From positions 1-44,821 of the IMG/VR virus record IMGVR_UViG_3300032053_000152: DNA of 44,821 nucleotides, one strand, 5' to 3'. Numbering within the stretch: the first letter of the stretch is position 1; each line of letters begins with the position of its first letter. Shown piece by piece: positions 14,093-38,914 of this stretch. Below the pieces are notes generated by a model. That model was not told where the DNA came from. It saw nothing but the letters and a program-made list of their open reading frames with translations, and made no database searches. Source of the DNA: a virus. Both the position numbers and the translations under genes were made by a program.

Positions 14093-14437
14093 ATGGAAAT
14101 CAGGAGATGCAAGGAGTGCCCGGCTATGGAATCGAAGCCGGGCGGGCGCGAAGGCGGATTCCCTGTCTGTATCTGTCACCTACGACCGGCCTGGGCGGTG
14201 GCCCAGGGCGCCGTCAGTTTCCCGGAGGTCAGAGAGGACTGGTGGTGTGTCGAGGGGCAGGCGATCGGGGAGCCTACGGCAGAGGGGAGACGGGCACGGA
14301 TCGAGGCACTCATCACTGAGCGCGAACAGATGCTGGCCGGGAACCAGAAGCGGTCGCGCAATGACGAGGCGCAGATGTACGGCGAGCAACAGTTCGCTGA
14401 CCTCGCAAGGCTGTTCAACGAGCTGGCGACCTCCTAA
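14093..14437 (+). CDS. Cys-rich small protein
   Basis: A 114-residue protein with Cys at CKECP (residues 6-10), CIC (26-28) and one further at WWC, so a metal site is likely in the first half. The second half is a charged helix (RRARIEALITEREQMLAGNQKR). The ribosome binding site is GAGGAAGCGGGCA. It precedes the nuclease-helicase pair. Function unknown. Confidence 0.55.
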   Translation: MEIRRCKECPAMESKPGGREGGFPVCICHLRPAWAVAQGAVSFPEVREDWWCVEGQAIGEPTAEGRRARIEALITEREQMLAGNQKRSRNDEAQMYGEQQFADLARLFNELATS

Positions 14438-14444
14438 GGACCAC

Positions 14445-14840
14445 ATGGAACCATTGCACGGGATCCTGATGCAGACGGCCTCGCCATTGACGGCAGCGGA
14501 TCTGCGCACGATCCTTGCTGGATACCGATTCCGGTTTTCGACGGAGGAACAGCTTCATGCGGGGATGGAAGACGTGATGGCGCGCGAGGGGCTCCGTTGG
14601 GAGCATGAGAGACATCTCTCGACTGGCCGGATCGACTTCCTTGTGGAGTCCGGGATCGGCATCGAAGTGAAGGTCGACGGGAGCCGAGCCGCGCTCCTGC
14701 GACAGATCTCCCGGTACCTTCTTCAATCGGAGGTCCGCGAGTTGCTCGTCATCACGACGAGGGCTTCCCATTCCGAGATCCCGATGGTGATGCACGGGAA
14801 GACGGTTCGCGTTCTCTATCTCTCACCGGGGATGCTATGA
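14445..14840 (+). CDS. PD-(D/E)XK nuclease
   Basis: A 131-residue protein with the core of a PD-(D/E)XK nuclease: a Glu-bearing helix (Glu53/Glu55 in LRWEHERHL), then GRIDFLVE with Asp64, then GIGIEVKV with Glu74-x-Lys76, and a helix LLRQISRYLLQSE followed by a strand ELLVITTRA. That order is typical of small stand-alone resolvase-like or repair nucleases. The stop overlaps the start of a SNF2-type helicase (ATGA), so the two are made together. Nuclease-plus-SNF2 pairs are common in phage early regions and probably act together on DNA. Confidence 0.75.
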   Translation: MEPLHGILMQTASPLTAADLRTILAGYRFRFSTEEQLHAGMEDVMAREGLRWEHERHLSTGRIDFLVESGIGIEVKVDGSRAALLRQISRYLLQSEVRELLVITTRASHSEIPMVMHGKTVRVLYLSPGML

Positions 14841-16654
14841 GGACCTATGGCACGATGAGGTTCGTTCTAGAGACGGGGCTCTGGATGGTTGACACCGAGC
14901 CGCACGTCGCCATGAGGATCAAGCGACTCCTCGATCGCGTCTCGAAGAACGGAACTCCGGGGCATCTTCTCATCAGGGCGACAGACGAAACGGCACGTGA
15001 TCTCCTTTGGATCTCGGAACGCTACCCGATGGAGATCAGCGAAGGTGATCGCCGGCGGATGGAGATGAGCGCCGGAGCATTCGATCAGCATGTCAATCTC
15101 ATCCAGGAGCTACTTCTCGGGAAGATCGAGCCTCGGCCCTTTACGCTGGCGATCCCGCTGCGTGACTACCAACGCATCGCAGCCGAGGCGTTCCTACAGA
15201 CGAAGGGACTCCTTCTTGCTGACGACATCGGTCTCGGGAAGACAGCCTCTGCGATCGCCGCTCTGACGGAGCCGACGACGCGGCCGGCGCTTGTCGTAAC
15301 ACTCACGCACCTCACGACACAATGGGCGCGCGAGATCACTAAGTTCGCTCCTGGGCTGTCCGTTCACATCATCAAGAAAGGGAAGCCCTATCCGGTCGGC
15401 GCGGCCGGCGGCTCCTTCCCTGACGTCCTCATCATGAACTACCACAAGCTCGCCGGCTGGAGTTCGAATCTCGCCGGGCAGATGCGGACGGTCATCTTCG
15501 ACGAGGTCCAGGAACTGCGGACCGGATGGGGTAGCCAGAAGTACGACGGGGCGCGCAAGGTCGCCGATGCGGCGATCTATCGGATCGCATTGTCCGCGAC
15601 GCCTGTGTATAATTATGGTGGAGAGTTCTTCAATGTGATGGAAGCTATTCGCCCAGGAGCTCTCGGAGATCTTGAGGAGTTCAACCGCGAGTGGTGTCTG
15701 CACCGCTATGGGGAACGGCCGTCTCAGGCACGCGTGCGGGATCCGGTCAGCTTCGGAACGTACGTCCGCGAAGTTGGGTTGATGATCCGCCGGACGCGGG
15801 CCGAGGTTCGGCGCGAACTACCTGAGGTCATGGTGATCCCGCAGCACGTCGATGCGGATCCGAAGGCACTTGACCGGGTGTCGGTTGAAGTGGCAGAACT
15901 CGCTCGCCTGATCCTGCGGCCGGAGACGGAGTGGACGGATCGCGGGCAAGCGGCGCGCGATCTCGATTGGAAGTTGCGCCAAGCAACGGGTATCGGGAAA
16001 GCTCCCTATGTGGCCGCCTTCGTGCGTCTGCTCGTGGATTCTGGCGAACAGGTTCTCCTCTACGGATGGCACAGAGAGTGCTATGCAGTGTGGATGGACC
16101 TTCTGAAGGACCTCTCTCCGGTCATGTTCACCGGATCAGAGTCGCCAACGCAGAAGGATGCGGCACGCGATGCGTTCGTCGAAGGGCGTGCAAAGGTTCT
16201 CGTGATGAGCCTGCGCGCCGGGCAAGGGATCGATGGGCTCCAGGCCGCGTGTCGGACGGTTGTCTTCGGAGAGTTGGACTGGTCTCCAGGCGTCCACAAT
16301 CAATGTGCCGGGAGGATCCATCGCGATGGGCAGAAGGATCCTGTGTCAGTCTACTACTTGGTCAGCGATTCCGGCTCTGACCCGGTCGTTTCCGACGTGC
16401 TGGGGATCAAGCGCATGCAGATCGAGGGGTTGTGTGACCCTACGGCTCCGCGTGTCGAGGCTGTGACGACGAAGGATGGAGCGATCAAGAAGCTGGCGGC
16501 GGACTACCTAGGACGCCGTGGCCAAGCCGTGACAAGGCCGCCAAACAGCGAGGAGGTGGCACCTATGGCGGGACCGTCATCCCCGGAAGAAATCCTTTGT
16601 TTCGGGGGAGCGGTTCCCTGCGTGGAAGAGGAAAGAATTGAGCGGGCGACTTGA
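14837..16654 (+). CDS. SNF2-family DEAD-like helicase/translocase
   Basis: A 605-residue SF2 ATPase of the SNF2 type. Motifs in order: PLRDYQRIAAEAF (Q-like entry), Walker A DDIGLGKT (129-136), VVTLTHLTTQW (Ia), DEVQ (222-225, where DEAH/DEAQ is usual), SATP (253-256), ARDAFVEGRAKVLVMSLRAGQGIDGLQAA and GRIHRDGQ (492-499, motif VI). All ATPase residues are present, so an active double-stranded DNA translocase is likely. The last 60 residues are unassigned. It is coupled to the upstream nuclease. Possible roles are fork remodelling, displacement of host proteins or anti-restriction. Confidence 0.9.
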   Translation: MRTYGTMRFVLETGLWMVDTEPHVAMRIKRLLDRVSKNGTPGHLLIRATDETARDLLWISERYPMEISEGDRRRMEMSAGAFDQHVNLIQELLLGKIEPRPFTLAIPLRDYQRIAAEAFLQTKGLLLADDIGLGKTASAIAALTEPTTRPALVVTLTHLTTQWAREITKFAPGLSVHIIKKGKPYPVGAAGGSFPDVLIMNYHKLAGWSSNLAGQMRTVIFDEVQELRTGWGSQKYDGARKVADAAIYRIALSATPVYNYGGEFFNVMEAIRPGALGDLEEFNREWCLHRYGERPSQARVRDPVSFGTYVREVGLMIRRTRAEVRRELPEVMVIPQHVDADPKALDRVSVEVAELARLILRPETEWTDRGQAARDLDWKLRQATGIGKAPYVAAFVRLLVDSGEQVLLYGWHRECYAVWMDLLKDLSPVMFTGSESPTQKDAARDAFVEGRAKVLVMSLRAGQGIDGLQAACRTVVFGELDWSPGVHNQCAGRIHRDGQKDPVSVYYLVSDSGSDPVVSDVLGIKRMQIEGLCDPTAPRVEAVTTKDGAIKKLAADYLGRRGQAVTRPPNSEEVAPMAGPSSPEEILCFGGAVPCVEEERIERAT

Positions 16655-19183: not shown

Positions 19184-19324
19184 ATGACGTTCACGATCAT
19201 CCTACTGCTCGTGTTCCTGTGGCTGGTATCACGGCTCCCACGCAACATTGAGAAGATGGTGGCGGCATGGCGCAAAGCGGTGGCCCCAACGGAGAAGGGG
19301 AAAGGAGAGGAGAACAAAACATGA
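19184..19324 (+). CDS. Very small single-span membrane protein
   Basis: A 46-residue protein, MTFTIILLLVFLWLVSRLPR then a charged tail, so one membrane segment with a cytoplasmic basic tail. GGAGGAGGTGAGG lies just upstream and its stop overlaps the next start (ATGA), both of which support translation. Function unknown. Confidence 0.6.
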   Translation: MTFTIILLLVFLWLVSRLPRNIEKMVAAWRKAVAPTEKGKGEENKT

Positions 19325-19875
19325 GGACACCGATTCCCGTGAATACGCCAGTCGTTCACCTTCCGACAGGGAAACAGCTCGTCGTCCTCGCGGATGACGG
19401 GGAGAGTTACGTCCTCTGTGTGGTCGGAGGGGAAGCTCTCACGATCGGACATGGAGAAGATGCGCGGGTGTGGGATCCAGGAGAGCGCATCTTGCTTCCA
19501 CCATTATCCCTCGCCCGGATCTGCGAGGAGGACTGTCCGACCTGTTTTGGAACGGGGAATGTTTGTGAACGGGTGTCGCCGGAGCGTCCAATCGGGCCGC
19601 CGAATGAACTCGTCAGCAAGGGGGGGTACGGTGCGGAAGGATCGACAAGGGATGCGGACTTGACATTCTACGAAGTGTGTTTCTGGAGGTTCACTGGGCC
19701 GGGTTTGGTTCTGAGCAGTCTGCCCGGCGTTCTCCGCAGTCTCAATTCCTGCGGGGCCAGGTTTGGTTTCGGGCAGAACGGGTCCCGTTGTGCGCAATCC
19801 GGCAGCAGACTGCCAAGAACGAAGAGTGACGGCGGTGAGAATCGGACTGCGCGGAATCCCATCAGTTCTGCCTGA
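19321..19875 (+). CDS. Hypothetical protein running into the repeat array
   Basis: A 184-residue open frame. The first 115 residues look like a real protein: strands (TPVVHLPTGKQLVVLADDGESYVLCVV) and a zinc-like CPTCFGTGNVC. From about base 19700 the frame passes into the palindromic site array, so the last 55-60 residues (GPGLVLSSLPGVLRSLN onwards) are encoded by regulatory repeats and have no protein-like character. I infer that the array was inserted into or fused to the end of this gene, which lost its original stop. Start ATG overlaps the preceding stop. Confidence 0.5.
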   Translation: MRTPIPVNTPVVHLPTGKQLVVLADDGESYVLCVVGGEALTIGHGEDARVWDPGERILLPPLSLARICEEDCPTCFGTGNVCERVSPERPIGPPNELVSKGGYGAEGSTRDADLTFYEVCFWRFTGPGLVLSSLPGVLRSLNSCGARFGFGQNGSRCAQSGSRLPRTKSDGGENRTARNPISSA

Positions 19876-20204
19876 AACGAGACGTGACGGACCCAGGTTT
19901 GGTTTTGCGCAGAACACGAGGGAGATTGCTCAAAACGGATCTCTGCCGAGGTGGGAATGGTTCTGAGAAGAACCAGCCCAGTTCTGAGCAAAACGAAACC
20001 TGCCGGCACTGAGATCGGTTTCAAGCAGAACGGGTCCCGTTTTGCGCAGTCTGAAACTTGGGGACCGCAGGTTTGGTTTCGGGGCAATCCGCTGCTAGAC
20101 TGCGCAGACTGAAATCTCGCGCCGCAGCAATGGGATTAGTGGCTTCTGTGAGCAGACTGCCTGAAACGGATCGCTGCGGGATCAGGTTCGGGACTGCCGA
20201 TCTC
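19708..20204. repeat. Palindromic-site array 1 (58-bp lattice)
   Basis: Copies of a 14-bp site close to the palindrome GTTCTGCGCAGAAC begin at 19708, 19729, 19766, 19787, 19807, 19844, 19865, 19902, 19923, 19960, 19981, 20018, 20039, 20076, 20097 and 20154; degenerate copies fall at 20134 and 20191. Intervals are 21, 37, 21, 20, 37, 21, 37, 21, 37, 21, 37, 21, 37, 21, 37, 20, 37. Paired sites 21 bp apart thus repeat every 58 bp. In several units the 7-bp spacer is itself palindromic (GGGTCCC), making a 35-bp double dyad; the 23-bp linkers often end CAGGTTTG. This fills the 398-bp gene-free stretch 19876-20273. Confidence 0.9.
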
Positions 20205-20223
20205 CTGTCGGCACTAGGCGAAA

Positions 20224-20252
20224 GTGACAAGAGGGCGGAAAAGGCTTAGGAT
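20224..20252 (+). promoter_or_regulatory. Promoter of the ParB-like/radical-SAM/PLP operon
   Basis: GTGACA (20224-20229), 17-bp spacer, TAGGAT (20247-20252), immediately after the site array and 22 bp before the ParB-like start. A weak array-like copy around 20211 abuts the -35, so a protein bound to the array would probably affect this promoter. Confidence 0.6.
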
Positions 20253-20273
20253 AGGGCCTGCGGGGGTGTGACG

Positions 20274-20945
20274 ATGGCAGACAAGAGGGGCGGTGGGCGG
20301 AAGCCGACGGGGGCGCAGAAGCCCGAAGATTCCCATGCTGGGTACACGTTGGACCCGAGAAACGCCAGGGTTCACCCCGAACAGAATCTGACCTCTCTCG
20401 GAGGGTCGCTGCGGGAGCTGGGTGCGGGGCGCAGTATCGTCGTTGACAAGAACGGTGTCGTGATCGGGGGCAACGCCGTCCTCCAGAAGGCGATGGAGCT
20501 AGGCATCCCCACGATCGAATTGGAAACGGATGGATCGTCTCTGCTCGTTGTGAAGCGTATCGACCTCGATACCGACGACCCGAAGCGCAAAGCATTGGCC
20601 TTGGCTGACAACCAGATTGCGTTGCTCGCCGAGTGGGACACTCCTCGCCTGGAGGAGTTGAAGGCGGAACTCGGAGAGATCCAGTTGATTGACGTGGGCT
20701 TCGTTCAACCCCTTGAGATCCCAGACCCCCAGATCCCGGGTGGCGGACTAGGCGGAGACGGCGCCCCACAGAATCCTGGGTTCCTCGCGGGGTATCGATA
20801 CTTCCCGGTCATCATCAAAGAGGAGGACGCCGATCTGATCCAGGCCTGGTTTGACAGGGTGTGTGGGTCCGAGGCCACGGATGGAATGCTCCGGGGCGCT
20901 GCTCTCCTCAAGTGGATTAGGGAAGAGGGAGATGACCAGGGATGA
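20274..20945 (+). CDS. ParB/sulfiredoxin-fold protein
   Basis: A 223-residue protein whose residues 22-150 follow the ParB N-terminal (ParB/Srx) fold: LDPRNARVHPEQNLTSLGGSLRELG, VVDKNGVVIGGNAVLQKAMELGI (GGN at 65-67, where GxxR or GHxR is found in partition ParB proteins), VKRIDLDTDDPKRKALALADNQIALLAEWDTPRLEELKAELG (ADNQ at 111-114). This version is found in many phages near terminase and DNA-modification genes. Members of the fold include CTPases, nucleases and free-serine kinases, so the reaction cannot be read from the family. It is ATGA-coupled to a radical-SAM enzyme and sits behind the palindromic array, which could be its DNA target or merely its regulatory region. Confidence 0.8.
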   Translation: MADKRGGGRKPTGAQKPEDSHAGYTLDPRNARVHPEQNLTSLGGSLRELGAGRSIVVDKNGVVIGGNAVLQKAMELGIPTIELETDGSSLLVVKRIDLDTDDPKRKALALADNQIALLAEWDTPRLEELKAELGEIQLIDVGFVQPLEIPDPQIPGGGLGGDGAPQNPGFLAGYRYFPVIIKEEDADLIQAWFDRVCGSEATDGMLRGAALLKWIREEGDDQG

Positions 20946-22126
20946 GGGTGACGGGCCAGTTTCCATTCTGCTCGGGTCCGATGTCGGTGGACTCCTACCG
21001 CGGGTGTCAAGGGACGTGCGTCTACTGCTTCGCTCAGAATCGGCAGGATGCCAAGGGCCTGGTGTCGCGGGGAAAGCCGATGCCTGTCGAGGGACCCGGG
21101 ATCTTCCATCCGAGCGGCCGACTCAACGCGAGTTCTTGGGGGAAGTTGGCGGTGCACCTTGGTGGGATTGCTGACGCCTTACCCAAGGAGGAGAACAAGG
21201 TCGGGCGCACCGCCACTTTCATCGAAAAGGTGCTGCCGGGGCGGGCAGTGATTCTCTCGACCAAGGGCGACGTTCGGGAGTTCCCTGCGGTCCTCAGAGC
21301 CATGCAGATTCGGCCGGGCGCCTTTCTTTACCAGGTGTCGGTCGAGACGGATTCTGAGAAGATTCGCTATCGACTTGAAGGGGATCGGCAGGCAACCATC
21401 GCTCAGCGTCTCGGGGCAATCGAGGCTGTGGCCAAGCTCGGGATTCCTACGGTGATCCGAATGCAACCTTTCGTCCGAGGATGGTGGAAAGGGCTCAGCG
21501 CATTCGTCCAGCGGGTGGCGGATGCTGGGGCCAGAGGAGTGATTGTCGAGCACCTGAAGTTCGGTGCCGGGGTCACGAATTGGGATCGGCTCAAGGCGGC
21601 GTGCGATGAACTAGGTACTCCGCTCGAGTACCTGGGCCGGGGCAAGACTGAAGGCGACAAGAGCCTCCCGATCAAGGAGAAGGTGGCGAACTACCTGGAG
21701 GTCGCAAGCATCGCACACGCGAAGGGCCTTGCTTGCTTCTCGGGGGACAACGCGCTCCGCCCTCTTGGCGACTCGCCCTACTGCTGTGGTCAGGAGCTAA
21801 TGGCTGACTTCGATGAGAGTTGGGTGTTCGCTGGGAACCTCACGGCCCAAGCGTGGAGAGGGCGGCGGATCATGGCGGCGGCCTGCGGTAACGATGACGT
21901 TCCGGGCAATGCTCTGACCTCGTGCGGCTTGAGTCAGGATACTGCGGGCTGTCTTCAGATGAATCACATGATGCTCCCGGAATTGATGGTCGAGTGGGCA
22001 CGCAGTGACTTCCGGATGCAGGGAATTCTACCGTACGCCGTGAAGATCGAGCCGGGGGTCTGGGAGCAGACGGAGGAATGGCTGAAGTTCTGCCAGGGTA
22101 TTCGGCGCCCTCTCCGCAAGCCATGA
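20942..22126 (+). CDS. Radical-SAM enzyme, spore-photoproduct-lyase-like
   Basis: A 394-residue radical-SAM protein. RGCQGTCVYCFAQN gives Cys22-x3-Cys26-x2-Cys29 for the [4Fe-4S] cluster. Then ILSTKGDVREFPAVL, FLYQVSVETDSEKIRYRLEGDRQATIAQRLGAIEAVAKLGIPTVIRMQPFV and GVIVEHLKFGAG are beta-alpha repeats of the barrel, close in style to the SPL/DUF family. The C-terminal region has extra Cys (SPYCCGQEL, AACGNDD, SCGLSQDTAGC) that could bind a second cluster. It overlaps the ParB-like gene in front and the PLP gene behind by ATGA, so the three are one translation unit. The substrate is unknown. Confidence 0.88.
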   Translation: MRVTGQFPFCSGPMSVDSYRGCQGTCVYCFAQNRQDAKGLVSRGKPMPVEGPGIFHPSGRLNASSWGKLAVHLGGIADALPKEENKVGRTATFIEKVLPGRAVILSTKGDVREFPAVLRAMQIRPGAFLYQVSVETDSEKIRYRLEGDRQATIAQRLGAIEAVAKLGIPTVIRMQPFVRGWWKGLSAFVQRVADAGARGVIVEHLKFGAGVTNWDRLKAACDELGTPLEYLGRGKTEGDKSLPIKEKVANYLEVASIAHAKGLACFSGDNALRPLGDSPYCCGQELMADFDESWVFAGNLTAQAWRGRRIMAAACGNDDVPGNALTSCGLSQDTAGCLQMNHMMLPELMVEWARSDFRMQGILPYAVKIEPGVWEQTEEWLKFCQGIRRPLRKP

Positions 22127-22974
22127 TTGAGCTCTTCCAAGAGACACCGGTCGAAGAGTACACCCTGAACGGCACTCCGATCTTCGTGAAACGTGAAGAC
22201 CTGTGCGCCGACTATCCTATGCCCCCGCTTGCCAAGATGAGAGGTGTCCTTCGATTCATTAAAGGCCGCATGGGTCAGGTCAAGACCTTCGGCATTCTCG
22301 ATACTCGGATCTCGAAGAGCGGCCAGGGGGTTGCCGTGATCTGTGGACGCCTCGGTCTGCGCTGTCGCTACTACTTCCCGCTCCTTGTCAGTCAGAAGGA
22401 GTTCAGTCCCCAATGGTGCATCGCCGGCGAACAGCCGGGCACCGAACTCGTCCCAATGCACGGTGGGCGGACCGCTGTTCTCCGCGCTCAAGCCACTCGC
22501 GACTGCCAGATGCGCGGTGTCCTCATGCTGCCTCAAGGACTACCGCTGTTCGAAAGCGTTCTGGCCACGGCCGAGGTCCTTGCCGGGGTCCCCGGCGATC
22601 TGCTCGGAGGAACCATCTGCCTCTCCACGGGCACCGGTACCATCCTCAGCGGCCTCATCCTAGGCCTTGCCCAACGGCGCGCGCACCCGTATCTCTTGGG
22701 GGTTTCCGCCTCGATGTCTACCGACAAACAGCGGGCCTTGATCCAAGGGCACCTCGCCAGGATCAAGGTGGAGCGCCTGGCGGCCCCGGAGGAGGTGGGC
22801 TGTGTCATCAGCCGCCTGACTCTCCTCAAGGGGATGGGCGACTACTACACGCCCGGCCGCTTCGTCCCGCCGTGGCCAGCGCACCCGTTCTACGAGTTCA
22901 AGGCACTCGATACTATCGTCCCCCTACTCTCCACGTTCCCCCAACCCATCCTCTTCTGGAACATCGGTTCCTAG
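22123..22974 (+). CDS. Fold-type-II PLP-dependent enzyme
   Basis: A 283-residue PLP enzyme resembling D-cysteine desulfhydrase/ACC deaminase and related tryptophan-synthase-beta-fold proteins. TPIFVKREDL is followed by LAKMRGVLRFI with Lys38 where GNKxRKLE places the PLP lysine. ISKSGQGVAVICGRLGL is the helix that lines the cofactor, and LSTGTGTILSGLILGL (STGTGT, 168-173) is the phosphate loop. Length is slightly short of the usual 300-350. The gene overlaps the radical-SAM gene by ATGA. PLP-plus-radical-SAM neighbours occur in phage pathways that build hypermodified thymidines; here no other gene of those pathways is seen, so the product is unknown. Confidence 0.8.
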   Translation: MIELFQETPVEEYTLNGTPIFVKREDLCADYPMPPLAKMRGVLRFIKGRMGQVKTFGILDTRISKSGQGVAVICGRLGLRCRYYFPLLVSQKEFSPQWCIAGEQPGTELVPMHGGRTAVLRAQATRDCQMRGVLMLPQGLPLFESVLATAEVLAGVPGDLLGGTICLSTGTGTILSGLILGLAQRRAHPYLLGVSASMSTDKQRALIQGHLARIKVERLAAPEEVGCVISRLTLLKGMGDYYTPGRFVPPWPAHPFYEFKALDTIVPLLSTFPQPILFWNIGS

Positions 22975-32579: not shown

Positions 32580-33483
32580 GGGAGAAGGTCCAGCCCCATT
32601 CAGCAAGGGCAGTCGGCGGTTCACCCTCATCTTGGCGGACACCAGCACGCGTATCATCAAGCAGGATCTCGGACGAGACGTCACGGCGGCTGAGGTCACG
32701 GATCTCTGCAAGAAGCTGAAGGTCACACAGCTTGAGGGGACCGGGTTTGAGGACGACATCCGCAAGGCGATGGCAGAGGCCAAGATCGAGTGCGTGGAGA
32801 TCGGCCTTCCGCCGAACACGGAAGAAGAGAAGCTCACTATCTTCAAGTCGGGCGAAGAGGTTCTCGCAATCCGGGAAGTCGTGGGCGACGCTCCGAAGGA
32901 CAGGACCATCGCCATCCTCAAAGGGTTAGCCGGCACCTATCTTCAGGTCGACTGGGTCTACCCTAACCGGCTAACGGTCCAGGGGGATCTATCCGATCAC
33001 GCGAATCACGATCTGCGGGAGGCCCTGCGCCAACTGCCGTGCGCTGAGTGCGTGATGGAGTGCATGGCGGTCCTCAAGGGGGAAGACGCGGAACTCACGG
33101 CGTTCGACCTCGTCTCACAGGACGGCGAGGATTTCAGCGGCGAGACCTATGCCCAGCGCCTCGGACGGCTCTCTGAGTTGTTCAAGGGCTGGAAGATCGC
33201 AGGCAAGACTCCGGGAGATGGCGCTGTAGTCATGCTGAAGATGGCGGACACGTCCTTCATGACGTTGGAAGGACCGCAGGACATCCCCGATGCTGCTGAC
33301 CACCTGGCGGAGATCTCGAAGGGGAACAGTGCTCTGCTATTGCTGGCGGACGCGCCGCGGCCGGCGGAGGACGAGGAACGGACGGCCGTCCTCTATACAG
33401 GCAAGGGCGTGAAGAAGAATGCTCTCAAGGACTTGATCGGCCAAACGTTCCAGGTCCTGAAGCGGCTCAGGGGTGGAACGTGA
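32536..33483 (+). CDS. Protein resembling a DNA-ligase nucleotidyltransferase domain but lacking KxDG
   Basis: A 315-residue protein. The segment from about residue 130, YLQVDWVYPNRLTVQGDLSDHANHDLREALRQLPCAECVMECMAVL, and AELTAFDLVSQDGEDFSGETYAQRLGRLSELF, has the rhythm of ATP-dependent ligase motifs I and III-IV (KxDG; ...DGE...; FDLLYLDGEDLTGLPYxxR). Here the KxDG is QVDW, so an adenylating Lys is absent. The resemblance is weak and may be a fold relic. Next to it is a sugar epimerase. The start has AAGGGAGGGAAGGAAC. Confidence 0.4.
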   Translation: MVSTSQVRLRAIEDEGEGPAPFSKGSRRFTLILADTSTRIIKQDLGRDVTAAEVTDLCKKLKVTQLEGTGFEDDIRKAMAEAKIECVEIGLPPNTEEEKLTIFKSGEEVLAIREVVGDAPKDRTIAILKGLAGTYLQVDWVYPNRLTVQGDLSDHANHDLREALRQLPCAECVMECMAVLKGEDAELTAFDLVSQDGEDFSGETYAQRLGRLSELFKGWKIAGKTPGDGAVVMLKMADTSFMTLEGPQDIPDAADHLAEISKGNSALLLLADAPRPAEDEERTAVLYTGKGVKKNALKDLIGQTFQVLKRLRGGT

Positions 33484-34628
33484 ACAAGTTCATCATCTCG
33501 TATGGGACCCGGCCGGAACTGCACAAGCTCTGGCCGCTGATCGTTCAGCTGCGGAGGAATGGCGCTCAAGTCTATGTCGTCTGTACGGGGCAACACAGCA
33601 CCCTCCTCAGGCTCTCGGAGGACGCTCTCGGGATACACCCGGACGTGAACTTCTGGAGCATGTCTCCGGATCAGACGCTCATCGAATCGGCGGGCAGGCT
33701 CCTGATGAAAGCAGCGGAGTGGGCGACGCCGGCGTATGGCGAACCCGGAGGGCCACTACCGGAGAGGTTTGACGCTTGGATCGTTCAGGGTGACACGACA
33801 TCGGCGCTGACCATGGCGATTGCAGGGCGATACGCTGGGCTCCCTGTCGTCCACGTGGAAGCGGGCCTCCGATCATTCGACGACCTCAATCCATTCCCTG
33901 AGGAGATCAATCGCCGGGCGATCTCGGCACTCGCCACCATGCACTTCGCGCCGACGCCAGGGGCTGCGGCTAACCTCCGCAATGAGGGTGTGCCAGAGGA
34001 TCGCATCTGGGTTGTGGGGAATACCGAACTCGATGCGACGAGCATGGCCCTCGACCTACAACCGGGATCCAGATTTCCACAGACCGAAGGCCAGAAGTAC
34101 GTCGTGGTCACGGCGCATCGCCGCGAGTCGATTGGTATGGGTCTCCGGGAGATCACCAAGGCGATCATCCAACTGGCGGAGATGCACGCCGACACCCCGT
34201 TCTACTTCCTCCTCCACCCGAACCCAGAGGTCGCGGCTTCGATGACTGGCGAGCTACAAGGGGCGCCAGAGAACCTGCTGAAGATTGCGCCCCTCGACTT
34301 CGTGAGCATGACGCACCTCTTGGCCGGGGCGCATTTGGTCGCCACGGACTCGGGCGGGCTCCAGGAGAGCTGTCCGTTCCTCGGCGTTCCGGTCATCGTC
34401 CTGCGTGACGTGACAGAGCGGCCAGAAGGGGTAGAAGTTGGTCTCGCCATACTCGGCGGCCGGAGCCGGAAGACGATCCTCCCGGCATTCGAGGCGCTGT
34501 TCGGAGACACCCCGCTGAGGACCAAAGCAGAGTGCGCCATCAACCCTTATGGCGAAGGGGATTCTGCTGAGCGGATCGCCAGGGAGCTGTTGGGGATCAG
34601 TCGTGCGAGCACTGGAGGCGGAAGATGA
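33480..34628 (+). CDS. wecB: UDP-N-acetylglucosamine 2-epimerase (non-hydrolysing)
   Basis: A 382-residue enzyme, the normal WecB length. Motifs seen: SYGTRPELHKLWPLI, VQGDTTSALTMAIAGRYAGLPVVHVEAGLRS, PFPEEINRRAIS, VVGNTELDA, VVTAHRRES, FLLHPNPEV, TDSGGLQESCPFLGVPVIVLRDVTERPEG. Catalytic-region Asp, Glu and His residues are therefore in place, so it should turn UDP-GlcNAc into UDP-ManNAc. GTG start overlaps the previous stop (GTGA). In a phage head operon the product is likely a sugar donor for glycosylation, and a GT4 glycosyltransferase is present at 42703. Confidence 0.93.
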   Translation: MNKFIISYGTRPELHKLWPLIVQLRRNGAQVYVVCTGQHSTLLRLSEDALGIHPDVNFWSMSPDQTLIESAGRLLMKAAEWATPAYGEPGGPLPERFDAWIVQGDTTSALTMAIAGRYAGLPVVHVEAGLRSFDDLNPFPEEINRRAISALATMHFAPTPGAAANLRNEGVPEDRIWVVGNTELDATSMALDLQPGSRFPQTEGQKYVVVTAHRRESIGMGLREITKAIIQLAEMHADTPFYFLLHPNPEVAASMTGELQGAPENLLKIAPLDFVSMTHLLAGAHLVATDSGGLQESCPFLGVPVIVLRDVTERPEGVEVGLAILGGRSRKTILPAFEALFGDTPLRTKAECAINPYGEGDSAERIARELLGISRASTGGGR

Positions 34629-35491: not shown

Positions 35492-35701
35492 ATGGCGAAT
35501 GGCATCAGGCTGACCTGCGACGACAAGTTCATCACCCCGAAGACCATTGCACGTCAACTCGGGCTGTCCCTGGCAACCGTCTACCGGATGCTCGAGAGCG
35601 GAGAGATCCCGTGTATCCGGCTTGGCCACTCCTATCGCATCGCGCAGAATGCGTACGAAGAGTGGCTCTCCTCACAGCAACAGGACGGCGGGGGCTTGTA
35701 G
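35492..35701 (+). CDS. Helix-turn-helix (excisionase/MerR-like) DNA-binding protein
   Basis: A 69-residue HTH_17-type protein: FITPKTIARQLGLSLATVYRMLESGEIPCIRLGHSYRI is a winged helix-turn-helix as in phage excisionases. It lies just upstream of the second palindromic-site array, so it is the best local candidate for a factor that binds those sites, but its preferred operator is not known. No strong ribosome binding site is seen; a TTGACA at 35487 overlaps the start without a matching -10. Confidence 0.8.
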   Translation: MANGIRLTCDDKFITPKTIARQLGLSLATVYRMLESGEIPCIRLGHSYRIAQNAYEEWLSSQQQDGGGL

Positions 35702-35724
35702 TCCCGCCGCGTGGTCTGTATGAT
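35696..35724 (+). promoter_or_regulatory. Sigma70-like promoter
   Basis: TTGTAG (35696-35701), 17-bp spacer, TATGAT (35719-35724), just after the helix-turn-helix gene. It would start a transcript through a gene-poor region of about 600 bp. Confidence 0.6.
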
Positions 35725-35766
35725 TCTGGGTGTCAGGTGAACAGCGAGCCGATGGAGGGCGGAAGG

Positions 35767-35913
35767 ATGAGATCAAGCCCACCGAGAGTAGAGCCGGAAC
35801 GACGAAGTGCGGTACCCCATCCTAACCGGATGAGTAGCCGATGTCACCTTCGCCTGATGACCGGTATCCTTCCGCTCTCCCGCTCCTCGCGGGATCTTTC
35901 GCCTCTACACTAG
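35767..35913 (+). CDS. Possible small open reading frame in the gene-poor gap
   Basis: A 48-codon frame starting at ATG 35767 behind GGAGGGCGGAAGG, after the promoter at 35696. The peptide is Arg/Ser/Pro-rich (MRSSPPRVEPERRSAV) and runs through a hairpin at 35878-35894, so it may be an untranslated leader. Low confidence. Confidence 0.25.
   Translation: MRSSPPRVEPERRSAVPHPNRMSSRCHLRLMTGILPLSRSSRDLSPLH
35878..35894 (+). terminator. Possible terminator hairpin
   Basis: TCCCGC (35878-35883) pairs with GCGGGA (35889-35894), loop TCCTC, followed by TCTTTCGCCTCT. The stem is short but GC-rich and the run after it is T-rich in part. Confidence 0.4.
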
Positions 35914-36008
35914 TTCTGACCTAAGCCCTCTCGCCTTATGACTCCGGGAGGGCGAGGGTCAGCGCTGAACAAGGCTACGGAGACGCCCTCCTGGCCTAGT
36001 GGAGAGAC

Positions 36009-36034
36009 GGCGGCACTCCTCCGGGGGTGCCGTC
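36009..36034 (+). terminator. Strong hairpin, possible terminator
   Basis: An 11-base-pair stem (36009-36019 with 36024-36034, two G-U) with a TCCG loop, followed by GCACTTCTTGGG. It could end a short transcript from the promoter at 35696. The U-run is weak. Confidence 0.45.
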
Positions 36035-36081
36035 GCACTTCTTGGGTTCTCTGAGCATAGGCAATGCAGCGGATCTTGTGG

Positions 36082-36211
36082 GTTCTGCGCAGAATGATTA
36101 TTGAGGAGGCAGCTCTTGATTCTGGGCAGTCTGCTCACAGAACCCACCAGTCCCATTCATGGCTCGGTCACGGGTTGGATTGCGCGAAACGTGACCCGTT
36201 CTACCGGAAAC
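36082..36211. repeat. Palindromic-site array 2 (same lattice as array 1)
   Basis: Sites of the same 14-bp family start at 36082 (GTTCTGCGCAGAAT), 36119 (ATTCTGGGCAGTCT), 36177 (GGATTGCGCGAAAC), 36198 (GTTCTACCGGAAAC), with a degenerate copy at 36140. Intervals 37, 21, 37, 21 match array 1 exactly. A short shared block TTCTGTGAGCAGACTGCC also occurs in array 1 near 20144 and here in the opposite orientation (36126-36142 region). A degenerate flanking copy may lie near 36048. Confidence 0.8.
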
Positions 36212-36296
36212 CATTCCCTGACCCGCCGAGTGTGGGTGCGCGCGGGATCTTGGTCTTTCTCACGAGCCTCTTTCCTTCGCTCTAGACAACTCCGGT

Positions 36297-36333: not shown

Positions 36334-37443
36334 ATGCTTACCGAAGATGGAGGCGTGCAGCTGACGGAGCTGTTCGGCTTGGACACGGAGTCCATCCATC
36401 TAGTTCGGCGTCCGGCGATCGGGCGCCGGTTCCTTTTGACCAAGAAGTCGCCGGGAAACGACAGGGAGGGAACGATGCTCACGGTGGAGAAAGACATCGA
36501 GGCGATCGTCGCCAAGATGGCGGGGACGAAGGACGAGGCGGAGATGGTGGCGCTGCGGAAGAATGCAGGCGTGCTCTTCGGGGAACTCTCTGAGGCGGTC
36601 AAGGGCGGGAAGATCCCGGAGGCCATCGCCAAGGCGCTCGTCGAGAAGGGCGAGGCGCTCTTCAAGGACAAGGAATCGGTGACCAAGGCCGATACGGTTA
36701 CCTGGATCGGTCAGATCCAGGAGGCGCTGAAGGCGGCCCCGCCGAAGCCGGATGCCGAGACACTGAAACCCGACGCCGAGGCCGACGCGCAGACCGCAGT
36801 CATCAAGGCGGCGCTCGACAGCCTGGAGAAGCTTGGCACGCAGATCTCTCCCGAGATCGTTGCGGCCCTGCGCGGCGAGGTCCAGAAGCACACGAAGACC
36901 CCGGAGATCCCGGAGGACATTCGCAAGTCGCTCGGTGCTCTGCCGGAAGGGCTGCGCGCTTCGATCGTTGGGCTCATGCAGGAACGCGCCACGGCGATCG
37001 CGAAGGCGGCGGCTCAACGCGAGGCCGATCTCCTCACCCGGATCGAGAAGTCGGAACAGAGCCAGAAGGCGCTGGCCACCGCTCTCGAAACGATCCAGGT
37101 CGAGAAGCGGCGCGCGGCCCTCGTCACCGAACTCAATCTGAAGCACATCGGCGGAGACGCCGGGCAGATCGCGGACGTCGTTCTCGGGGTCGAGAAGTCG
37201 AGCCCAGAACAGGCGCAGAAGCTCATCGCCATCCTGAAGTCGGCGGAAGAGGCGGCGGGCAAGGGCGGCCTGTTCAACGAGAACGGGACCTCTCGCGGTG
37301 CGGCCGGGGGCTCGGCTGAGGGGAAGATCGAGCAGATCGCGAAGTCGATGATGGGGACGACCGCGGGTCTCACCATCGAAGCGGCTCGGGCGCAGGCGTG
37401 GAAGGATCACCCTGAGCTGATGCGCGAGGCGCGACAGGGATAG
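36334..37443 (+). CDS. Scaffold-like head assembly protein, possible internal start
   Basis: A 369-residue Ala/Glu/Lys-rich, helical protein of scaffold character between the protease and the capsid genes. Its N-terminus (SIHLVRRPAIGRRFLLTKKSPGN) resembles the LVxRPAxxxxFLLxK start of phage head-maturation/scaffold proteins. ATG 36334 has no ribosome binding site and lies about 15 bp after a TATTCT, so a leaderless start is possible. A second in-frame ATG at 36475 has a strong GGGAGGG at 36464-36470 and would give a 322-residue form without the RRP segment. Both products may be made. Confidence 0.7.
   Translation: MLTEDGGVQLTELFGLDTESIHLVRRPAIGRRFLLTKKSPGNDREGTMLTVEKDIEAIVAKMAGTKDEAEMVALRKNAGVLFGELSEAVKGGKIPEAIAKALVEKGEALFKDKESVTKADTVTWIGQIQEALKAAPPKPDAETLKPDAEADAQTAVIKAALDSLEKLGTQISPEIVAALRGEVQKHTKTPEIPEDIRKSLGALPEGLRASIVGLMQERATAIAKAAAQREADLLTRIEKSEQSQKALATALETIQVEKRRAALVTELNLKHIGGDAGQIADVVLGVEKSSPEQAQKLIAILKSAEEAAGKGGLFNENGTSRGAAGGSAEGKIEQIAKSMMGTTAGLTIEAARAQAWKDHPELMREARQG
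36475..37443 (+). CDS. Alternative internal start of the scaffold-like gene
   Basis: ATG 36475, in frame with 36334, has GGGAGGG four bases upstream, much stronger than the outer start. It would produce MLTVEKDIEAIVAK onwards (322 residues). This could be a nested scaffold, as in phages that encode a scaffold inside a longer assembly protein, or the only real start. It is listed so that both starts are visible. Confidence 0.45.
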   Translation: MLTVEKDIEAIVAKMAGTKDEAEMVALRKNAGVLFGELSEAVKGGKIPEAIAKALVEKGEALFKDKESVTKADTVTWIGQIQEALKAAPPKPDAETLKPDAEADAQTAVIKAALDSLEKLGTQISPEIVAALRGEVQKHTKTPEIPEDIRKSLGALPEGLRASIVGLMQERATAIAKAAAQREADLLTRIEKSEQSQKALATALETIQVEKRRAALVTELNLKHIGGDAGQIADVVLGVEKSSPEQAQKLIAILKSAEEAAGKGGLFNENGTSRGAAGGSAEGKIEQIAKSMMGTTAGLTIEAARAQAWKDHPELMREARQG

Positions 37444-37924: not shown

Positions 37925-38914
37925 ATGAATCCGACTCTCGGTCAGGCGCATGTCGATACTGCGCTCACCCAGATCTCGATCGCCTTCAAGCTCGCGGCGA
38001 CGATGTTCAAGGCGGGGATCGCATTCCCACGGGTCCCAGTCAAGAAACAATCGGACAAGATCCTGGAGATGAATCGTTCGGACTGGCTGCGCAACGAAGC
38101 CGGCATCCGAGCAGCGGCCACGGAATCGCGTGGCGGCGGCTTCCGGATCAGCGCGACGAAGACGTACTTCGCTGATGTCCATGCCTACCACGTGGACGTT
38201 CCGGCGACGATGATCGCCAACTCGGACATCGAGAACATCGAGGTCCAGATGGCGGAGTTCGTCATGCAGAAGCTCCTGCTGGAGCGGGAGCTGGACTGGG
38301 TGACGAAGTTCTTCGCCATCAACAAGTGGGCGGATCAGGGCACGCCGAATGATGCGACGGGTAGCGGCGCGTCGAACACGTGGCCCTACTTCCGGTACTG
38401 GGACGACCACGCGAACGGCAATCCGATGAAGGCCGTTCGCAATGGCCGCCAGGCCGTGAAGAAGACGACGGGCTTCAACCCGAACCTCATGTTCGTGGGA
38501 GAAGAGGTCCACGACGAGCTGGCGATGCACCCGGACGTCATGGAAGTCATCAAGTACACGCAGATCGGCATCGCTGATGTCGCCCTGCTCGCCCGGCTGT
38601 TCAGGGTTGATCGGTACTTGATCGGCGAGGCGGTGTACGACGCCGGGCTCGAAGGAGCCACAACCGCGACGTACTCGTTCGCTTTCGGGAAGCACGTCCT
38701 GCTCTGCTACGTGCCTGCGGTGGCCGGGCTCCTCACGCCGTCTGCCGGGTACATCTTCGAGTGGACCGGCTTCAACAACATGGGCTACGACGTCAAGATG
38801 AAGACGATCGATGCTCCGCTGCTCGAAGCCGAGCGCATCGAGGGCGAGATGGCGTACGACGCACGCCAGATCTGCTCGGAGCTGGGCGTCTTCTACAACG
38901 GCGCAATCTCGTAG
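37925..38914 (+). CDS. Major capsid protein (HK97 fold)
   Basis: A 329-residue capsid protein placed right after a cement protein. Recognisable parts: a helical N-terminus with KAGIAFPRVPVKKQSDKILEMNRSDWLRNEA, a glycine-rich turn RGGGF, ATKTYFADVHAYHVDVPATMIANSDIENIEVQMAEFVMQKLLLERELDW (spine helix), NPMKAVRNGRQAVKKTTGFNPNLMFVGEEVHDELAMHPDVMEVIKYTQIG, and a C-terminal domain GYIFEWTGFNNMGYDVKM. Start ATG follows GGGAGGTGTC. It is the most likely shell subunit. Confidence 0.9.
   Translation: MNPTLGQAHVDTALTQISIAFKLAATMFKAGIAFPRVPVKKQSDKILEMNRSDWLRNEAGIRAAATESRGGGFRISATKTYFADVHAYHVDVPATMIANSDIENIEVQMAEFVMQKLLLERELDWVTKFFAINKWADQGTPNDATGSGASNTWPYFRYWDDHANGNPMKAVRNGRQAVKKTTGFNPNLMFVGEEVHDELAMHPDVMEVIKYTQIGIADVALLARLFRVDRYLIGEAVYDAGLEGATTATYSFAFGKHVLLCYVPAVAGLLTPSAGYIFEWTGFNNMGYDVKMKTIDAPLLEAERIEGEMAYDARQICSELGVFYNGAIS

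Follow-up and report, generated by a model that had tools for sequence, protein, structure and literature searches.

Why does the same short quasi-palindromic site recur, at the same two intervals, in two separate places of one viral genome, each lying ahead of an operon, and what kind of molecule would such an arrangement serve? We considered this question in a single window, that is, the whole stretch of 44,821 bases in one IMG/VR viral record, and in one relative species. In what follows, the two places are referred to as array 1 and array 2.

Anatomy of array 1

The larger of the two lattices comprises the following features:

19698..20205, no strand assigned: array 1, 18 lattice positions, with intervals of only 21 or 37 bp
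Positions 1–9 of array 1: 19708, 19729, 19766, 19787, 19808, 19845, 19866, 19903, 19924
Positions 10–18 of array 1: 19961, 19982, 20019, 20040, 20077, 20098, 20135, 20156, 20193

All 17 of the intervals are 21 or 37 bp, with a single extra 21-bp step (19787–19808); some sites lie one base off their ideal position, and the weak positions are the final three of the 18. The array consists of ~8.5 diverged units of 58 bp, each with two quasi-palindromic 14-bp sites placed 21 bp apart, and shows a lag-58 identity of 46% and an autocorrelation z of 9.9 (background 95th percentile 4.4). As inversion centers occur once per ~29 bp, this lag-58 signal implies that the unit is a 58-bp quasi-palindrome of two 29-bp halves, with a half-unit that reads, outward from the center, approximately CCC GTTCTGC GCAAAAC CAAACC. 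At several columns of this half-unit, exactly two bases are permitted across all 18 half-units, and the identity between units is ~46% in both orientations, independent of adjacency.

The sequence of the units is thus divergent while their spacing is exact, which points to selection on protein placement rather than to a decaying repeat. Neither array is a near-identical tandem repeat or a CRISPR, with Tandem Repeats Finder reporting nothing at either place, and repeat-finding programs can readily overlook arrays of this kind, with their fixed spacing and drifting sequence. The consensus RKWYYGMNCRRWMY occurs nine times in the 44,821-base window, in each case inside one of the two arrays and never outside them; other loci, totaling 681 kb, contain it 14 times. 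At 10.5 bp per turn, 21 bp corresponds to 2.0 helical turns and 37 bp to 3.5 turns, such that the sites of a pair would face the same side of the helix and adjacent pairs opposite sides. Several copies of one quasi-palindromic site are therefore found at helically regular spacing, as in a multi-operator array; array 1 is equally an array of repeated binding sites, as in a partition centromere.

Palindromic sites could also act as RNA or single-stranded DNA hairpins, and array 1 does fold better in bulk than its shuffles (z of −5.9 and −7.4). Bulk folding is, however, expected from the palindromic sites themselves, and despite its strength no covariation of paired positions was found at either kind of inversion center, nor were the compensatory base changes in paired arms present that mark a structured RNA repeat array. 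In addition, matches between the outer halves of 21-bp pairs are rarer than column shuffles predict, although, with several sub-ranges tested, this mismatching is suggestive only. As the paired halves do not covary, we read the arrays as protein-binding DNA, and consider a hairpin function very improbable.

Array 2 and its relation to array 1

The second lattice lies close to the capsid operon:

36045..36215, no strand assigned: array 2, ~2.5 units of the 58-bp lattice
36082..36095, no strand assigned: site GTTCTGCGCAGAAT, score 18.0, rank 1 outside array 1
36119..36132, no strand assigned: site ATTCTGGGCAGTCT, 37 bp past the first site, score 12.2, rank 6
36177..36190, no strand assigned: site GGATTGCGCGAAAC, 58 bp past 36119, score 13.3, rank 2
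36198..36211, no strand assigned: site GTTCTACCGGAAAC, weaker, 21 bp past 36177, score 8.9

The scores given here come from a weight matrix trained on array 1 alone, with ranks taken among all 14-mers outside array 1; apart from this held-out test of array 2, our site models derive from the arrays themselves. A preliminary description of this DNA had placed five sites in array 2, at intervals of 37, 21, 37, and 21 bp, and four of these five are true matches, whereas 36140 (GAACCCACCAGTCC) does not reach a site-level score with the array 1 matrix and is a lattice position only. A further weak match is seen near 36046, at the edge of the array. When scores are summed over the 37-21-37-21 lattice, the window peaks at 57.9 at 36082, compared to peaks of 16–24 in 12 Markov-simulated windows, and 36082 is the sole strong place for this lattice outside array 1. 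The earlier statement that the geometry common to both arrays is not due to chance is thus borne out (57.9 against a simulated maximum of 24). Array 2 is moreover of the same family as array 1, partly inverted: its stretch 36125–36157 aligns to 20129–20161 of array 1, on the minus strand, with 91% identity and an E value of 1.6e-7. With the same site, the same lattice, and the outcome of the held-out test, the shared regulator proposed in that description is well supported in the form of a shared binder, and one binder for both arrays would be the simplest account.

Neighboring genes and comparison with a relative species

The genes and signals that surround the two arrays are as follows:

20224..20252, plus strand: promoter-like GTGACA-N17-TAGGAT, 19 bp past array 1 (1 found, 0.1 expected)
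20268..20945, plus strand: ParB/Srx-domain protein, 225 aa, first gene downstream of array 1
20942..22126, plus strand: radical SAM protein, below the Pfam cutoff
22078..22974, plus strand: PLP-dependent enzyme, threonine dehydratase-like, with relatives in YuA-like phages
35492..35701, plus strand: excisionase-like HTH_17 protein of 69 aa, retained by the relative despite its lack of array 2
35725..36037, plus strand: RNA-like leader that separates the HTH gene from array 2, with a long stem, another hairpin, and a hairpin resembling a terminator
36334..37443, plus strand: phrog_17741 gene (369 aa), the first after array 2, with the capsid operon following it
37925..38914, plus strand: major capsid protein

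The ParB-like protein was considered as a centromere binder and rejected, as it has no recognized DNA-binding domain (HTH), and its homologues, most of which are joined to or annotated with methyltransferases, resemble methyltransferase-associated ParB/Srx proteins. The cassette formed by the ParB-like, radical SAM, and PLP genes may have some role in DNA base modification, which we put forward as a suggestion. No clear promoter was found after array 2. In our search for DNA-binding genes near the arrays, only the HTH_17 gene was found, and neither a CI-like repressor nor an omega-like protein was found in the window. We note that the window is a fragment, as the relative's contigs run well past both ends of its gene set, and that a gene for the binder may lie beyond its ends.

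The relative is represented by contigs of one species, with ~70% identity in aligned DNA, that span both array places. At its capsid locus, this species retains the HTH gene, the RNA-like leader, the downstream gene, and the capsid operon but not array 2, and its start codon lies ~103 bp past the terminator-like hairpin, compared to ~300 bp in the window (~197 bp shorter). Array 1 is absent from the other locus, as is the ParB-radical SAM-PLP cassette, and the lattice was not found in any piece of the relative's contigs. The comparison of the arrays in related phages, which the preliminary description had called for, could thus be carried out on one relative species, in which both arrays are absent. 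Such co-absence in a single relative species is what would be expected if both arrays depend on the same binder, and suggests that these arrays may be optional modules gained and lost within the phage lineage.

This comparison bears on two further points of that description. It gives no support to an established role of the arrays in linking the late operon to the early accessory operon, since the relative keeps its capsid operon without either array; as its late genes are kept in the absence of array 2, this array is not a fixed component of late control. The HTH gene at 35492 had been noted directly upstream of array 2, and we examined it as a dedicated partner of this array; its retention in the relative without the array indicates that the two are not coupled, and a terminated RNA-like element lies between them. 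This ~300-nt element (35696–36037 in the window, 7970–8316 of contig L003 in the relative) carries the hexamers TTGTAG and TATGAT with a 17-bp spacer, identical in both phages, and its long stem surrounds the conserved GGCGGAAGGATGA, with flanks that differ between the phages and pairing that is kept. With fold z values of −3.6 (window) and −7.1 (L003), and no match to known RNA families in Rfam, the leader is probably a conserved, terminated phage non-coding RNA.

We also observed several features in the regions around these loci. A distant homologue of the gene before array 1 (19322–19875) is present in the relative, at 30% over 101 aa. The frame of the window's gene enters array 1 for ~60 codons, over which the codon-position signal is not clear, as though array 1 had taken the place of the 3′ end of this gene. 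A UDP-N-acetylglucosamine 2-epimerase gene (33480–34628) lies within the structural region, beside the head maturation protease. Finally, at 14247–16654, a phrog_5928 protein with a nuclease-like look adjoins an SNF2/DEAD helicase, in a region that differs from the relative, and the two form a possible defense or anti-defense pair.

In other sequence collections, no meaningfully similar DNA was found among phage and plasmid records, and scans of viral and genome collections with degenerate patterns gave no matches, which is weak evidence of absence given their low sensitivity (the first pattern would hardly match array 1 itself). At this sensitivity, arrays of the kind were not seen in any further phage. 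One genome scan, made with terminase, gave no prophage relative, and no comparable array was seen in YuA or in part of phage FP1. Lattice-like signals in other loci were examined by autocorrelation; the one in locus L036, at lag 57, a multiple of three, falls within probable coding sequence.

Candidate explanations and known systems

Our preferred reading, to which we assign somewhat less than an even chance, is that both arrays are cooperative docking or operator strips for one oligomeric DNA-binding protein, which controls two operons. This protein would recognize a 14-bp quasi-palindrome of approximately GTTYTGC|GCARAAC, with half-sites of either a GTT or an RGA type; two dimers would share one helix face, 21 bp (2.0 turns) apart, and the next pair would be placed 37 bp (3.5 turns) further on, on the opposite face. 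Cooperative assembly would then proceed along each strip (~500 bp for array 1, ~170 bp for array 2), controlling the downstream promoters of the ParB-radical SAM-PLP operon and of the capsid operon, and the two strips might be brought together by looping. This reading draws on the immediate recovery of array 2 by a model trained on array 1, on spacing kept while the unit sequence drifts to ~46% identity, on the two-base columns in all 18 half-units and halves that do not covary, on the confinement of the site to the arrays within the window, on the end of array 1 just 19 bp before promoter-like sequence, and on the one relative species without both arrays. A role in transcription is preferred because both arrays precede operons and are strictly spaced. 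Against it stand the ParB-like protein without a recognized DNA-binding domain, the HTH gene kept without the arrays, the unclear downstream promoter of array 2, a lattice seen in a single phage, and a co-absence drawn from one relative species.

It is also possible, though unlikely, that the arrays serve a plasmid-persisting phage for partition, as a centromere-like site, or for handcuffing, with a centromere-binding protein that coats both arrays and pairs or moves the DNA. Many palindromic sites in two places resemble the IR sites of sopC and N15, as well as the three parS arrays of plasmid pSM19035, all three overlapping a promoter (PMC7205306; PMC5016525), and in that plasmid the sites also act as operators; a ParB-like gene, furthermore, follows array 1. 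However, the ParB-like protein has a ParB/Srx domain only, with mostly methyltransferase-joined or -annotated relatives, no ParA or other partition NTPase, nor a linked centromere-binding protein, was found among the scanned proteins of what is a fragment, beyond which a par operon may lie, and the relative does without the arrays. We consider distinctly unlikely a phage nucleoprotein scaffold of an undescribed class, in which one protein with a two-state half-site code would coat and physically pair 58-bp dihedral lattices at two distant loci, with sequence kept diverse (a tendency of the paired halves to mismatch), which would protect the palindromic array from loss through hairpins or recombination.

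That the arrays are sponges, titrating a host regulator or host defense protein that recognizes the site, would fit the dense clustering of the sites, with none isolated elsewhere in the window, and their presence in one phage and absence from its relative, as for an optional accessory trait. Titration does not, however, need a strict 21/37 lattice over 500 bp, and no host regulon was identified, making this explanation improbable. REP/BIME elements are intergenic palindromic units that alternate in orientation, the copies of which are usually near-identical, and old copies of a mobile repeat of this kind would account for alternating inversion centers every 29 bp, for array 2 as a ~197-bp insertion relative to L003 that is inverted relative to array 1, and for the apparent replacement of the 3′ end of a gene by array 1. 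Here, however, the units are ~46% identical in both orientations regardless of adjacency, and their spacing has stayed exact, with no indels, as would not be expected of a mobile repeat in decay. Scans of viral and genome collections, which were insensitive, turned up no copies, nor were any seen in the relative's pieces, and we consider this origin to be of similarly low probability.

Returning to the preferred reading of strips for a single binder, if one protein binds both arrays, they would provide a compact natural system for the study of cooperative assembly and long-range DNA pairing. Among known systems, the 28-bp conserved repeats of Pseudomonas phage YuA, which shares the PLP enzyme family, are likewise repeated intergenic elements before operons, but they are single, near-identical, and promoter-like, rather than lattices. 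Single features are shared with sopC/N15 (PMC7205306) and with phage 186 CI (PMC8053113). In the case of phage 186, the CI repressor and its distal sites involve few operators, compared to up to 18 positions here, and no such repressor was found in the window. The sopC site of the F plasmid is built from tandem 43 bp units with one palindromic site each, and the N15 sites are dispersed in the phage genome (PMC7205306; PMC5016525); the likeness lies in tandem fixed-length units with palindromic sites, whereas here each 58-bp unit has two sites, the units are strongly diverged, and no SopA/SopB-type genes were seen. The closest published parallel is pSM19035 (PMC5016525). Its sites are heptads, unlike the 14-bp quasi-palindromes in a 21/37 lattice found here with no omega-like protein, but as with its omega/parS system, several arrays of short repeated sites are present, and in pSM19035 one small oligomeric protein binds several such arrays, which overlap promoters and are both operators and centromeres (PMC5016525).
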